The notes below the pieces were generated by a model. It saw only the letters and a program-made list of their open reading frames with translations, ran no database searches and was not told the DNA's origin. A stretch of DNA of 64,000 nt from Mycobacterium sp. UM_CSW (GTDB lineage Bacteria; Actinomycetota; Actinomycetes; Mycobacteriales; Mycobacteriaceae), in assembly GCF_000455205.1 (NCBI RefSeq), contig NZ_AUWQ01000029.1:62001-126000 (forward strand). The letters run 5' to 3'. The position numbers were made by a program, and so were the translations under genes. Position 1 is the first letter of the stretch. The number at the start of each line of letters is the position of its first letter. Shown here one piece after another: positions 8,557 through 60,353 of the stretch.

Positions 8557-9885
8557 GTGAGCACATCCAGTACCCCGCCGCCGGTTAACCGGCGCTTGGC
8601 CCTGGCGGCCCTCGGGCTCGGCGTGTTCGCCCCCAGCGTGTTGGCCGCCTGCGCGGGCACCGCGGCCAAGCAAGCCGAGACCAAGAAGGAGCCGCCGGCG
8701 CCTCAGCTGAAGTTCCAGCCGGCGGACGCCGCCTCCGACGTGGTTCCGATCTCGCCGATCAGCGTCCAGGTCAGCGACGGCTGGTTCCAGAAGGTGGCGT
8801 TGACGAACTCGTCGGGCAAGGTGGTCGCAGGATCTTTCAACGCCGACCGCACCGTCTTCACGACCACCGAGCCGCTGGGCTACGACGCGACCTACACCTG
8901 GAGCGGTTCGGCCGTCGGCCACAACGGCAAGGCGATCCCGGTGACCGGCAAGTTCACCACCGTGACGCCGAGCAAGAAGATCGGCGGCGCCTTCCAGTTG
9001 GCCGACGGCCAGACCGTCGGGGTCGCCGCGCCGATCATCATCCAGTTCGACGCGCCGATCAGCGACAAGGCCTCCGTCGAGAAGGCACTCACCGTCACCA
9101 CCACGCCCCCCGTCGAGGGCAGCTGGGCGTGGCTGCCCGACGAGGCGCAGGGGGCGCGCGTGCACTGGCGCCCGCGCGAGTACTACCCGGCGGGCACCAC
9201 GGTCAACGTCGACGCCAAGCTGTACGGGCGGCCGTTCGGTGACGGTGCGTTCGGCGCCGACGACATCTCGCTGCACTTCCAGATCGGCCGCAAGCAGGTC
9301 GTCAAGGCCGAGGTCTCCTCGCACCGCATCCAGGTCGTCACCGACGCCGGCGTCATCATGGACTTCCCATGCAGCTACGGCGAGGCCGACAAGGCGCGCA
9401 ACGTCACCCGCAACGGCATTCACGTGGTCACCGAGAAGTACGCCGACTTCTACATGTCCAACCCGGCGGCGGGCTACTCCAATGCTCACGAGCGCTGGGC
9501 GGTGCGGATCTCCAACAACGGCGAGTTCATCCACGCCAACCCGATGAGCGCGGGCGCGCAGGGCAACAGCAACGTCACCAACGGCTGCATCAACCTGTCG
9601 ACCTCCGACGCCGAGGAGTACTACCGCACCGCGATCTACGGCGACCCCGTCGAGGTGACCGGCAGCTCGATCCAGCTGTCCTACTCCGACGGCGACATCT
9701 GGGACTGGGCCGTGGACTGGGACACCTGGGTGGCGATGTCGGCGCTGCCGCCCCCGACGGCGCACCCGCCGGCCACGCAGATCCCGGTGACCGCGCCGGT
9801 CACCCCGTCGAACGCCCCGACGCTGTCGGGCACGCCCACTTCTTCTCCGACGACCACCACGCCTTCGCCTAGCCCTGGCGGTTAA
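8557..9885 (+). CDS. lprQ: L,D-transpeptidase lipoprotein LprQ (LdtMt5 type)
   Basis: Makes 3-3 crosslinks in peptidoglycan outside the membrane. 442 residues. A lipoprotein signal ([21 protein letters not shown], split here as RRLALAALG plus lipobox LAAC) anchors it. Ig-like domains follow, and then the YkuD catalytic domain with [10 protein letters not shown] and [11 protein letters not shown]. The Cys is present, but the usual SHGC is NGC, as I recall for LdtMt5. The tail is Pro/Thr-rich. I prefer GTG 8557 (TATCTT -10 eight bases upstream); GTG 8515 is an alternative. The 3' end overlaps the convergent SDR gene by 17 bases. Confidence 0.93.
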
Positions 9886-10618
9886 ACCGCGTCGCGCTGG
9901 CCTGGTCGCGCGGCTTCATGACGATCAGGTCGAGGTCGACGTGGGACGGCCGCGAGGCGACGAACCCGATCACCTCGGCGACGTCGGCGGCCGTCAACGG
10001 CGTCAGCCCGGCGTACACCGCGTCCGCGCGCTGTTGGTCGCCGTCGAAACGGACAAGCGAGAACTCGGTTTCGACCGCGCCCGGCGCAATCTCGGTGAGC
10101 CGCACCGGTTTTCCGAGTAGTTCACCGCGCAGCGTTCGGTGCAGCGCGCCCTGGGCGTGTTTGGCCGCGGTGTAGCCGGCGCCGCCGTCGTAGGTCTCCA
10201 GCGCCGCGACCGAGGTGACGGTGACGATCAGGCCGTCGCCGGAGTCGATCAGCTTGGGCAGCAGCGCGCGGGTGACGCGCAGCGTGCCCATCACGTTGGT
10301 CTCCCACATCCACCGCCAGTGCTCCAGGTCGGCCTCGGCGACGGGTTCGAGTCCCCAAGCGCCACCGGCGTTGTTGACCAACACGTCGACGCGTCCGAGC
10401 TTGTCCGCCAGCGCTTGCACCGCGGCATCGTCTGTGACGTCGGCCACAACGCCGGTCCCGCCGATTTCGTCGGCCAGCGCGTTGATCCGATCCGCGCGGC
10501 GCGCCACAGCGACCACGTGAAAGCCAAGGGCCGCAAGGACTTTGGCGGTCGCCTCGCCGATCCCGGAGCTGGCGCCGGTGACCACCGCGACCCGCTGTTG
10601 CCCCCCTACTGCGTTCAT
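9869..10618 (-). CDS. Short-chain dehydrogenase/reductase (Rv0484c-like)
   Basis: NAD(P)-dependent oxidoreductase of 249 residues, the classical SDR size. Cofactor motif [12 protein letters not shown] near residues 14-25, NNAGG, a catalytic Ser in VTSVAAL and Tyr/Lys in YTAAKHA. It belongs to the broad YdfG/serine-3-dehydrogenase-like group; substrate unknown. The ATG at 10618 is probably leaderless, with TAGAGT seven bases upstream. It faces away from the Cys-rich leader ORF and ROK regulator. Confidence 0.9.
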
Positions 10619-10641: not shown

Positions 10642-10647
10642 TAAATT
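10642..10647 (+). promoter_or_regulatory. -10 element of the Cys-rich leader ORF
   Basis: TAAATT ends six bases before GTG 10654. This is the spacing expected when transcription starts at the G of the start codon, so the leader ORF would be translated from a leaderless mRNA. Confidence 0.6.
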
Positions 10648-10653
10648 CTCGGA

Positions 10654-10740
10654 GTGCACCTCAGCGCCCTGTTCGACAACACCGCCGCGTGTCTTTGCGC
10701 GGCGAGTGCGTGTTGTTGCCGCGCACTTTGCCGCTCCTGA
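10654..10740 (+). CDS. Cysteine-rich leaderless leader peptide (28 aa), putative attenuator
   Basis: GTG 10654 to TGA 10738-10740 encodes 28 residues with six cysteines at positions 13, 15, 20, 21, 22 and 26, including three consecutive Cys codons (TGT TGT TGC, 10711-10719). It begins VHLSALFDNTAAC. The Cys codons lie on a strong RNA hairpin. Polycysteine leaderless short ORFs acting as cysteine-responsive attenuators have been reported in mycobacteria. Downstream are the ROK regulator and mshA, whose pathway consumes cysteine. Too short for ordinary gene callers. The role is inferred; the codons and geometry are read directly. Confidence 0.65.
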   Translation: MHLSALFDNTAACLCAASACCCRALCRS

Positions 10741-10767
10741 CCTTTCAGGCGTGGCCGAAGCCGGCCA
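10676..10767 (+). promoter_or_regulatory. Leader hairpins between the Cys-rich ORF and the ROK gene
   Basis: Hairpin 1: acaacac+cgccgcg (10676-10689) pairs with cgcggcg (10698-10704) and gtgttgt (10710-10716), 14 base pairs with a five-base bulge. The right arm contains two of the three tandem Cys codons. Hairpin 2: tggccg (10752-10757) with cggcca (10762-10767) and a four-base loop, just before the ROK ribosome site AAAGGA (10781-10786). A stalled or moving ribosome would change which hairpins form. Confidence 0.5.
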
Positions 10768-10791
10768 TTCGAACTCGGACAAAGGAATCTC

Positions 10792-12102
10792 GTGCGCACG
10801 ACGACTCTCACCCACACCCATTCCCCCAGCCGCAAGGCCCCCCTCCGGTTGCACCGCCAGATCCTGCCCCCGGCGCTGCACATCTCCGACTCGGCCGCGG
10901 CTTCGGTATTCCGCGCCGTCCGGTTGCGTGGCCCGGTCGGCCGTGACGTCATCGCCGGCGTCACGTCGCTGAGCATCGCCACCGTTAACCGCCAGGTCAT
11001 CGCGCTGCTCGACGCCGGGCTGTTGCGCGAGCGCGCCGACCTGGCCGTATCCGGCGCCATCGGACGCCCGCGCGTGCCCGTGGAGCTGAACCACGAACCG
11101 TTCGTGACGCTCGGCATCCACATCGGCGCGCGCACCACCAGCATCGTGGCGACCGACCTGTTCGGCCGCACGCTGGACACCGTCGAGACCCCCACGCCGC
11201 TCAGCGCCGCCGGGCCCGCGCTGGCATCGCTGGCCGAGAGCGCCAGCCGGTACCTGAGGCGCTGGCACCGGCGCCGCCCGCTCTGGGTCGGGGTGGCGAT
11301 CGGTGGCACCGTCGACAGCGCCACCGGACACGTCGACCACCCGAGGCTGGGCTGGCGGCAGGCGCCGGTGGGCCCCGTGCTGGCCGACGCGCTCGGACTG
11401 CCGGTCTCGGTGGCCTCGCACGTCGACGCCATGGCCGGCGCCGAGCTGCTGCTCGGCCTGCGGCGATTCGCGCCGAGCTCGCCGACCAGCCTGTACGTCT
11501 ACGCCCGCGAGACCGTCGGCTATGCGCTGGTGATCGGCGGGCGGGTGCACTGCCCAACCAGCGGCCCCGGCACCATCGCCACGCTGCCCGCCCACTCCGA
11601 GTTGCTCGGCGGAGCAGGACAGCTGGAGTCCACCGTCAGCGACGAAGCGGTGCTGGCCGCCGCGCGCCGGCTCAAGATCCTTCCCAGTGTCGCTCCGGCG
11701 ACCCGCATAAACGGGTCCGCGACCGCGATGACCGACCTACTGCGGGTGGCTCGGGCCGGCAATCAGCAGGCCAGGGAGCTGCTGGCGGAGCGGGCCCGGG
11801 TCCTCGGCGAGGCGGTCGCCCTGCTGCGCGACATGCTCAACCCCGACGAGTTGGTGGTCGGTGGGCAGGCCTTCACCGAGTACCCCGAGGCGATGGAGCA
11901 CGTGGAGGCGGCGTTCGCCGAAAACTCGGTCCTGGCGCCGCGCGATATCCGCGTCACCGCCTTCGGCAACCGGGTGCAGGAGGCCGGGGCCGGGACGGTG
12001 TCGCTGGGCGGGCTGTACGCCGACCCGCTCGGCGCGATGCGCCGCGCCGGGGCGCTGGACGCCCGGCTGCGGGACGTCGCCGCCGACGAGACGTCCGCTT
12101 AG
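10792..12102 (+). CDS. ROK-family transcriptional regulator (Rv0485-like)
   Basis: 436 residues: N-terminal winged-helix DNA-binding region (about 35-85, with [20 protein letters not shown]) and a ROK sugar-kinase-like domain from about 100. The usual ROK zinc cluster (CxCGxxGC) is absent: the equivalent place reads [20 protein letters not shown]. The catalytic Asp position reads [10 protein letters not shown]. It is therefore a sensor-repressor rather than a kinase. Rv0485 has been reported to affect a PE/PPE pair in M. tuberculosis. GTG 10792 has AAAGGA upstream, behind a Cys-rich leader. mshA starts 52 bases downstream. Confidence 0.9.
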
Positions 12103-12154
12103 CGCGAACGGCGCGCTTGGGTCGGTTCGCGGCCCGTCCTGTAAAGATGAAGGG

Positions 12155-13486
12155 GTGCGGCACGACGACGTCCCCCGGCTGAACGGCCCGCGCCGGGTCG
12201 CAGTGTTGGCGGTGCACACCTCACCGCTGGCCCAGCCGGGGACCGGCGACGCCGGCGGCATGAACGTCTACGTGCTCCAAACCGCGCTGCACCTGGCCCG
12301 CCGCGGCATCGAGGTGGAGATCTTCACTCGGGCCACCGCGTCGGCCGATCCGCCCGTCGCCCACGTGGCGCCCGGCGTGCTGGTCCGCAACGTGGTGGCG
12401 GGGCCGTTCGAGGGCCTGGACAAGTACGACCTGCCGACCCAGCTGTGCGCGTTCGCGGCCGGGGTGCTGCGCGCCGAGGCGTCGCACGAGCCGGGCTACT
12501 ACGACATCGTGCACTCCCACTACTGGCTGTCCGGGCAGGTCGGCTGGCTGGCCCGGGACCGCTGGGCGGTGCCGCTGGTGCACACCGCGCACACGCTCGC
12601 CGCGGTGAAAAACGCCGCCCTGGCCGACGGGGATGCGCCCGAGCCGCCGCTGCGCACGGTGGGCGAGCAGCAGGTCGTCGACGAGGCCGACCGGCTGATC
12701 GTCAACACCGAAGACGAAGCGCGGCAGTTGATTTCGATTCATCGCGCCGACCCGGCCCGCATCGACGTGGTCCACCCCGGCGTGGATTTGGACGTGTTCC
12801 GCCCGGGTGATCGCCGCGCGGCACGGGCCGCGCTCGACCTCCCGCCCGACGAGGACGTGGTGGCCTTCGTCGGCCGGATCCAGCCGCTGAAGGCGCCGGA
12901 CATCGTGCTGCGCGCCGCCGCGAAATTGCCCGGGGTGCGCATCGTGGTGGCCGGCGGCCCGTCGGGCAGCGGTCTGGCTTCACCGGACGGGCTGGTTCGG
13001 CTGGCCGGCGAACTCGGCATCACCGACCGTGTCACGTTCCTGCCGCCGCAGTCCCGCGTGGACCTCGCGACGTTGTTCCAGGCCGCCAATCTTGTTGCGG
13101 TGCCGAGCTATTCGGAGTCGTTCGGGCTCGTCGCCGTCGAGGCGCAGGCGTGCGGCACCCCGGTTGCCGCCGCCGCGGTCGGCGGCCTGCCGGTGGCCGT
13201 GCGCGACGGGATCTCCGGCGCGCTGGTGTCCGGCCACGACGTCGGCGACTGGGCGGACGCCCTGGATCGGCTGCTGCGCCTGCCCACGCCGCAGGCCGAC
13301 GCGATGGGCCGCGCGGCCGCCGCGCACGCGGCCACCTTCTCCTGGGACAACACCACCGACGCGTTGCTGGCCAGCTATCGGCGCGCGATCGGCGACTTCA
13401 CCGCCCTGCGCCAGCGCCGGTTTCGCGACCGGGCCTCGATGCGCAAGCCCCGGCGGTGGACGACGCGTCGCGGGGTGGACGCGTGA
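12155..13486 (+). CDS. mshA: D-inositol-3-phosphate glycosyltransferase MshA
   Basis: First enzyme of mycothiol synthesis: transfers GlcNAc from UDP-GlcNAc to 1-L-myo-inositol-1-phosphate. A GT4 (GT-B fold) glycosyltransferase of 443 residues. N-terminal signature [19 protein letters not shown], acceptor region [12 protein letters not shown] near residue 120, phosphate-binding [10 protein letters not shown], and donor motif [17 protein letters not shown] near 320. The chosen start GTG 12155 has GAAGG just upstream; a longer open frame further upstream lies inside the ROK gene and is not used. The stop overlaps the next gene as GTGA. Confidence 0.96.
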
Positions 13487-59370: not shown

Positions 59371-60353
59371 ACACGCTGCACGTCAACGTCACGCTGGCGC
59401 GCTACTCCGACTGGGCGTTCACCTCGGCGATCGTGGCCCTGGTCGTCGCGCTGCTGCTGCTGGCCGTGGAGCTGGCCTACGTCGGCGCCCGGCGCGCCGA
59501 TCAGCGCGCGTCGGTACTGGCCGGCTCGGTCGCGGCCGACAGCTCGGTCCCCGGCATCGTGGAGGACGCCGACGCGCGGCCGTTCGACGAACGCGTCGGG
59601 CGGGCCGGGCTGGCCGTGGTCTACCTCGGCATCGGGCTGCTGCTGGCCTGCATCGTGCTGCGCGGCCTGGCCACCGTGCGGGTGCCGTGGGGCAACATGT
59701 ACGAGTTCATCAACCTGACGTGCTTCTGTGGCCTGGTCGCCGGGGCGATCGTGTTGCGCCGCCCGCAGTATCGCCCGCTGTGGGTCTTCCTGCTGCTGCC
59801 GATCCTGATCCTGCTGACCGTTTCCGGGCGCTGGCTCTACACCAACGCCGCCCCGGTGATGCCCGCGCTGCAGTCCTACTGGTTGCCGATCCACGTGTCG
59901 GTGGTCAGCCTGGGCTCCGGGGTGTTCATGGTCGCGGGCATCGCCAGCATCCTGTTCCTGCTGCGCACGTCGCGGCTCGGTGATCCGCAAAACGAACGGG
60001 CCGACGGCGCGTTGGCCCGGATGGTCCGGCGCCTTCCCGACGCCCAGACCCTGGACCGCGTCGCCTATCGCACCACGATCTTCGCGTTCCCGGTGTTCGG
60101 TTTCGGGGTCATCTTCGGCGCGATCTGGGCCGAAGAGGCCTGGGGCAGGTATTGGGGCTGGGACCCCAAGGAGACGGTTTCGTTCGTCGCGTGGGTGGTA
60201 TACGCGGCCTATCTGCACGCCCGGTCGACGGCCGGATGGCGGGACAGGAAGGCGGCCTGGATCAACGTCGCGGGTTTCGTCGCCATGATCTTCAATTTGT
60301 TCTTCGTTAACCTGGTGACCGTGGGCCTGCATTCGTATGCAGGCGTGGGATGA
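59367..60353 (+). CDS. ccsB: Cytochrome c biogenesis protein CcsB/ResC (CcsA-type)
   Basis: 328 residues, eight predicted helices. It delivers and ligates heme together with ResB. The tryptophan-rich WWD-type heme-handling region is WGRYWGWDPKETVSFVAWVV (about 258-277). Conserved histidines occur in LPIHVSVVSLGSG, AYLHARS and the C-terminal GLHSYAGVG. Start ATG overlaps resB by four bases. Completes the TlpA-CcdA-ResB-CcsB set. Confidence 0.94.
   Translation: MNTLHVNVTLARYSDWAFTSAIVALVVALLLLAVELAYVGARRADQRASVLAGSVAADSSVPGIVEDADARPFDERVGRAGLAVVYLGIGLLLACIVLRGLATVRVPWGNMYEFINLTCFCGLVAGAIVLRRPQYRPLWVFLLLPILILLTVSGRWLYTNAAPVMPALQSYWLPIHVSVVSLGSGVFMVAGIASILFLLRTSRLGDPQNERADGALARMVRRLPDAQTLDRVAYRTTIFAFPVFGFGVIFGAIWAEEAWGRYWGWDPKETVSFVAWVVYAAYLHARSTAGWRDRKAAWINVAGFVAMIFNLFFVNLVTVGLHSYAGVG

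Follow-up and report, generated by a model that had tools for sequence, protein, structure and literature searches.

A conserved leaderless-type polycysteine leader that appears to belong to the ROK regulator gene in front of mshA in Mycobacterium

The window analysed here is a stretch of 64,000 nucleotides from Mycobacterium sp. UM_CSW (contig NZ_AUWQ01000029.1, positions 62,001 to 126,000). On its forward strand a gene for a ROK-family regulator (10792 to 12102, start GTG 10792; PF00480, E 7e-17) is followed by mshA, which encodes D-inositol-3-phosphate glycosyltransferase (12155 to 13486; TIGR03449, E 3e-198, above cut-off). From its place before mshA, the ROK gene is taken to be the ortholog of Rv0485/MSMEG_0932. 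A divergent gene on the reverse strand (9869 to 10618) encodes an SDR-type oxidoreductase; it matched many SDR models, those shown being below their cut-offs, and its start lies 35 bases from the start of a short leader ORF. This leaderless-type ORF (10654 to 10740, forward strand) starts with GTG 10654 and comprises 28 sense codons, six of them for Cys, and a TGA; its product is VHLSALFDNTAACLCAASACCCRALCRS. A -10-like element, TAAATT (10642 to 10647), lies six bases 5' of the GTG, and three of the Cys codons, TGT TGT TGC (10711 to 10719), are contiguous and form the proposed pause site. The ORF ends 51 bases before the ROK gene. A stop-codon stem spans its end, in which GCCGCUCCUGA (10730 to 10740) pairs with UCAGGCGUGGC (10745 to 10755) with one mismatch; a competing hairpin of UGGCC (10752 to 10756) and GGCCA (10763 to 10767) shares 10752 to 10755 with this stem, and the Shine-Dalgarno sequence of the ROK gene, AAAGGA, follows at 10781 to 10786. 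The -10-like element, the ORF with its six Cys codons and the hairpin at 10752 to 10767 before the Shine-Dalgarno sequence had been described in an earlier sequence-only reading of the window, and all were found as described. Rfam models gave nothing above threshold between 10500 and 10900, only two chance-level matches; leader peptides matched no model in NCBIfam (eight peptides) or Pfam (six peptides), and a search of plasmids with the leader DNA gave no match.

The alignment across mycobacteria that had been proposed as a check showed that the Cys codons and their frame are kept. A close set was formed from the window and the best 80 of 282 ROK relatives in named genomes (81 leaders), which by their species names we take to be mainly from slow growers. 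A Cys-rich ORF stood at the same place before ROK in all 80 of these best loci, and the triplet CCC was present in 77 of the 81 leaders. A ROK match was found in 276 of 297 further Mycobacterium genomes, and a far set was drawn from 60 places of lower ROK identity among those listed, not selected by leader and presumably mostly from rapid growers; an ORF with a Cys run was present in 59 of them, the sole miss (L125) being at a contig end. The two sets overlap slightly, since L170 appears to be the same as L080. The window, the 80 close loci and the 59 far loci gave 140 Mycobacterium leaders, all of which have TANNNT 6-8 bases 5' of the start. The starts of the 59 far leaders were chosen using the -10 rule and those of the other 81 were not, so the promoter spacing was freely tested only by the close set, in which 81 of 81 fit. 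The position in front of a same-strand gene was conserved in both Mycobacterium and outgroup loci.

Across the 140 leaders the ORF carries adjacent Cys codons towards its end, the longest run being two codons in 17, three in 89, four in 32 and five in 2. Start codons were GTG in 131 and ATG in 9, and stop codons were TGA in 134, TAA in three and TAG in three. Codons 20 and 21 encode Cys in all 41 leaders of 28 codons, and TGT accounts for 477 of 788 Cys codons in the leaders, compared with 7 of 30 in ten nearby ORFs. Leader length ranges from 14 codons (MYGSCCCRRALCRA, L148) to 37, and the non-Cys part of the peptide varies freely. Among 35 distinct 28-codon Mycobacterium leaders pS was 0.16 and pN 0.13, an overall pN/pS of 0.79, the ratio being about 1.0 over codons 2-12 and 0.54 over codons 19-28; in these 35 leaders, amino-acid conservation beyond the sensing codons was not found.

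The structure to which the sequence-only reading had given the central role, a 14-bp hairpin at 10676 to 10716, consists of two 7-bp stems (10676-10682/10710-10716 and 10683-10689/10698-10704) with a 5-base bulge. Two Cys codons do lie in its right arm, but the minimum-energy fold favours other hairpins: 10683-10691/10696-10704, followed by 10705-10712/10720-10727, whose loop holds most of the Cys run, and by 10730-10740/10745-10755. This fold had a z of -2.95, and 2 of 200 shuffles were as stable. The RNAalifold consensus of 74 close leaders consisted mostly of invariant pairs. The Cys-codon hairpin was represented there by four pairs, nearly all of them either invariant or altered on a single side; both sides had changed in one pair, in 2 of the 74 leaders. 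Across the 140 leaders the stop-codon stem was the more consistent feature.

The last codons of the leader ORF, including the stop, are complementary to a conserved downstream sequence, CAGGYGUGGC, which is near the ORF in most close leaders and about 20-40 bases further on in most far leaders. Over the 140 leaders, the 12-mer that ends the ORF paired better with the downstream leader (mean -17.0 kcal/mol) than other 12-mers did (-9.0 to -13.4 kcal/mol). Against shuffles, its mean z was -2.3 and z fell below -2 in 94 of the 140, with only 40 of the 140 beating all 100 shuffles. Two alignments were selected from the 140 leaders, A2 with 36 far leaders (seven peptide-type far leaders, described below, being excluded) and A3 with 42 mostly close leaders. 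The stop-codon stem was paired in 96.1% of cells in the former and 82.5% in the latter, while slid controls for the whole tested structures gave 32-48%. Its covariation was not significant in either alignment: there were no double changes in the 36 far leaders and one in the 42 mostly close leaders, no better than shuffles. Whole-arm swaps among 48 distinct arm pairs gave a native count of 397 against a swap mean of 397.5, and the native energies were slightly better (-12.70 versus -12.45), with 6 of 100 swaps as low. Apparent compensatory changes in single leaders (e.g. L126, L137 and L154) were considered, and the counts do not support covariation. The competing hairpin was paired in 91.9% of cells in 42 sequences, where its arms are nearly invariant, and a GUCC:GGAC stem with the ROK Shine-Dalgarno sequence was paired in 96.4% of cells in the 36 far leaders; neither set of sequences gave significant covariation for these helices. 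The arms are too conserved for covariation to be significant. As judged from conservation and complementarity, and not from covariation, the end of the ORF can pair with CAGGYGUGGC, and such a stem would account for the retention of the terminal codons in a peptide whose body varies.

Access to the ROK Shine-Dalgarno sequence was modelled for ribosomes at the Cys codons and at the stop, in a model that omits RNA 5' of the ribosome and in three groups of leaders, 11 of the 140 (L112-L119 and L169-L171) lying outside these groups. For the 81 close leaders, access was 0.47, 0.52 and 0.53 with the ribosome stalled at the first, second and third Cys codon, and 0.525 at the stop; a stall at the second Cys codon raised it in 16 leaders and lowered it in 20. 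The corresponding values for the window were 0.31, 0.36 and 0.46 versus 0.45 at the stop. In 41 far leaders a stall raised access modestly (0.29-0.31 versus 0.19; 16 up, 2 down), and in the seven peptide-type leaders it hardly changed (0.38 versus 0.37). As modelled access did not rise in the close leaders or in the window, occlusion of the ribosome site is not claimed for the window species. An intrinsic terminator scan between 10600 and 10900 gave no credible candidate, the single match lying inside the ORF with the Cys codons as its 'T tail'. In the window species, premature termination that uses no intrinsic terminator is no less likely than occlusion.

Conserved at the level of sequence, then, are the ORF, its frame, the Cys run, the promoter spacing and the arms of two predicted hairpins that are mutually exclusive. 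The reading that we favour, and hold to be probable, is that the leader peptide is read from the first base of the mRNA and acts in cis on the ROK gene, a shortage of Cys-tRNA leading by way of a ribosome pause and refolding to more ROK. When charged Cys-tRNA is short, the ribosome would pause in the Cys run, leaving the stop-codon arm free, and the stem 10730-10740/10745-10755 could then form; a ribosome that had reached the stop would cover this arm, and the hairpin at 10752 to 10767 would form instead. Refolding of the downstream RNA would change ROK output, presumably upwards on a pause, through either ribosome access or premature termination of the Rho type, the latter being favoured for this species. 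By analogy with its published relatives, this leader probably responds to cysteine.

ROK orthologs of other genera (about 47-58% identical) are also preceded by a leaderless-type ORF, which there encodes a conserved peptide, VTYVTxALGxRLPLxRxLCC. In an alignment (A1) of seven outgroup peptides and two from Mycobacterium, the ten residues V, T, V, G, R, L, P, R, L and C were invariant. A search with A1 found the peptide in 198 of 301 genomes of the family and 21 of 31 genera, usually with a single match in a genome; no match came from the genome that contains the window or from the Mycobacterium genomes among those listed, and one weak match only was found beyond the family, among 296 genomes of the class (family members included). 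ROK follows all 30 of the best-scoring matches and all 20 lower-scoring matches, in 18 of which the peptide pattern recognised the leader, and it also lies behind five further matches (L247-L250 and L252). Four weak matches without ROK (L254, L255, L260 and L261; E 0.003 or weaker) were not counted, L253 and L259 are one place, with ROK, split in two, and L251 is cut by a contig end. Seven far Mycobacterium leaders (L128, L133-L136, L139 and L140) retain an outgroup-like peptide (VTFVIAGIGSRLPLARELCCRCVCRCA); their stops are TAA in three, TAG in three and TGA in one.

In three genera (L239 in genome G604, L241 in G600 and L243 in G630) the outgroup leader has a second copy, which stands before an SBP_bac_5-type ABC transporter gene at a place without ROK. 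A permease behind the SBP_bac_5 gene was matched by Pfam in G604 only, with similar ORFs seen by eye in G600 and G630. Within the open-access library and terms searched, no literature on the conserved outgroup peptide was found, and both this ROK leader peptide under amino-acid constraint and its second copy before a transporter gene are apparently unpublished. With the transporter as a second target, the outgroup leader peptide offers a test system for the evolution of codon-sensing leaders, and for whether the peptide itself senses.

The conservation of this peptide raises the question of whether the leader is by origin an arrest peptide, in which the nascent chain, and not a shortage of Cys-tRNA, stalls the ribosome, most Mycobacterium having kept only its Cys end. 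Variation in the 18-codon core of the 30 best loci (25 distinct cores) falls mostly on third positions (6, 3 and 15 variable columns of 18 at the three codon positions), with a pS of 0.53, a pN of 0.066 and a pN/pS of 0.13; the contrast with 0.79 in Mycobacterium is inflated, because the 30 outgroup loci were chosen as the best HMM matches. The ten invariant residues, the occurrence of LCR instead of LCC in some outgroup leaders and the retention of the peptide in the seven far Mycobacterium leaders all point the same way. However, the peptide of close Mycobacterium leaders is unconserved while their Cys codons are kept, and the published relatives respond to cysteine, which makes an arrest peptide a doubtful explanation of the mycobacterial leader. 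A related history is suggested tentatively, as a possibility: the mycobacterial polycysteine leader may be a worn-down form of an older, portable peptide, of about 35 residues, leaderless and present in about twenty genera, which would stall itself on thiol or cysteine state and control ROK and, in some genomes, also an oligopeptide-type ABC transporter; most Mycobacterium would have exchanged it for a codon-read Cys run and the stop-codon stem.

The sequence-only reading had proposed that the leader attenuates mycothiol synthesis, with mshA as the selected target. Mycothiol contains cysteine, and mshA lies behind ROK in all 80 close loci, 35-116 bases away by alignment ends. Against this, mshA appears to have a start signal of its own. 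In the window, TGTAAAGAT (12140 to 12148, forward strand) precedes the mshA start, GTG 12155, by six bases, a leaderless spacing (12140 to 12157 with the GTG). The same element, followed after 5-7 bases by GTG and then CG, was present in 69 of the 80 close loci when the pattern was sought anywhere in the locus, and it lay directly before the mshA start in 18 of 20 loci inspected there. Among the remaining 11 close loci, GGTAAAGAT occurs in two, L012 has the element but another base following the GTG, and eight gave no match; by eye, several far loci carry the same or a similar element. From its sequence and spacing, this element is likely to be mshA's own leaderless promoter.

In other genera, moreover, the leader stays before ROK although the distance to mshA is about 0.9 kb in L198 and 2.3 kb in L199, and linkage of the leader to mshA across species was not found: in five loci of two other genera (L200-L204) ROK has the leader in front of it, and the 3-7 kb retrieved downstream of ROK contain no mshA. 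Judging from the ORF list only, the long ORF that comes next after ROK in L200 seems to be on the other strand. ROK paralogs beside an SDR gene in three outgroup genomes (L206, L207 and L208) were scanned for the leader, and it was not found; two of these three have a -10-like element just before an ATG near the gene start. The presence of the leader with ROK where mshA is distant or absent, and its absence from the paralogs, imply that it goes with one ROK lineage and not with mshA. The leader thus appears to belong to the ROK regulator and not to the neighbouring mycothiol gene, which would be at most a side target via readthrough, and selection on mshA is an unlikely explanation of the leader. 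With the leader assigned to the regulator, the supply of cysteine may influence ROK-controlled genes and not mycothiol synthesis directly. According to passages of PMC4128351, the ROK protein controls PE13/PPE18 in M. tuberculosis, and cysteine supply may reach such targets.

That the ORF encodes a small protein acting in trans, e.g. a thiol or metal binder, would be in keeping with its Cys-richness, the ribosome profiling of its M. smegmatis ortholog and the conservation of the peptide outside the genus. It is nevertheless very unlikely, as the peptide is as short as 14 codons with free variation, and the strong matches examined stand before ROK, apart from three that precede transporter genes of a single kind. 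Two ORFs of 10-60 codons bearing CCC were counted in the window, and eight Markov-simulated windows held 0-3 each (mean 1); when a -10 was also required at leaderless spacing, the counts were one in the window and one in the eight simulated windows together. About one short CCC ORF being expected per window, the leader ORF alone could be chance, but its retention at 139 of 140 further Mycobacterium places makes an ORF without function so improbable that it can be set aside. Another short CCC ORF in the window, at 59728 (VAWSPGRSCCAARSIARCGSSCCCRS), has no -10 at leaderless spacing and is at chance level.

The favoured reading, a Cys-codon leader acting in cis on ROK, can be set beside several known systems. 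Arrest peptides of the TnaC type have conserved residues before a conserved end. The outgroup leader is alike in both respects at the level of sequence, while the window's own leader differs in having no conserved body. Attenuators of the trp type have an intrinsic terminator, and a terminator hairpin with a U tract between leader and gene was not found between 10600 and 10900. In polycysteine attenuators, the ribosome site of the next gene is masked by RNA structure and becomes accessible only when the ribosome pauses. Attenuators of this kind, polycysteine leaderless short ORFs of M. smegmatis, were reportedly described by Canestrari et al. 2020. The window's leader shares with them a leaderless start, contiguous Cys codons near the end and a short gap to the gene; it differs in that its gene is a regulator and not a cysteine-metabolic enzyme, and in that occlusion of the ribosome site has no modelling support in close leaders. 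Passages in PMC9031893, PMC13236596 and PMC9094748 describe or build on such ORFs, crediting them to Canestrari et al. 2020, and the first two report cysteine-dependent attenuation by them in M. smegmatis. The sequence-only reading had placed the leader in this published, cysteine-responsive class, and a conserved leaderless-type polycysteine ORF before ROK agrees with that placement.

Cys leader peptides were predicted before cys operons by Seliverstov et al. 2005, where Rho was suggested (PMC1262725). These have Cys runs near the stop and no terminator hairpin, as here; they precede other operons, and that paper makes no mention of ROK. A CRP binding site upstream of Rv0485 has been reported in M. 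tuberculosis, in a passage of PMC4117774. In passages of PMC4128351, the Rv0485 orthologs of M. marinum and M. bovis are given a high ratio of 5'UTR to CDS reads, which fits premature termination in the leader. The sequence-only reading knew of no description of the site, but one is given in the Fig. 7 legend of Shell et al. 2015 (PMC4633059): it names a Cys-rich leaderless uORF upstream of Rv0485/Msmeg_0932, for which attenuation was proposed, with RNA-seq and ribosome profiling covering the M. smegmatis ortholog. That uORF belongs to another Mycobacterium species and is likened to the window's leader from the text and legend of that paper, but it lies at the same place before the same gene, is leaderless and is enriched in Cys, and so is the ortholog. 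The leader in the window thus represents a known kind of element and, through its ortholog, a site already reported.
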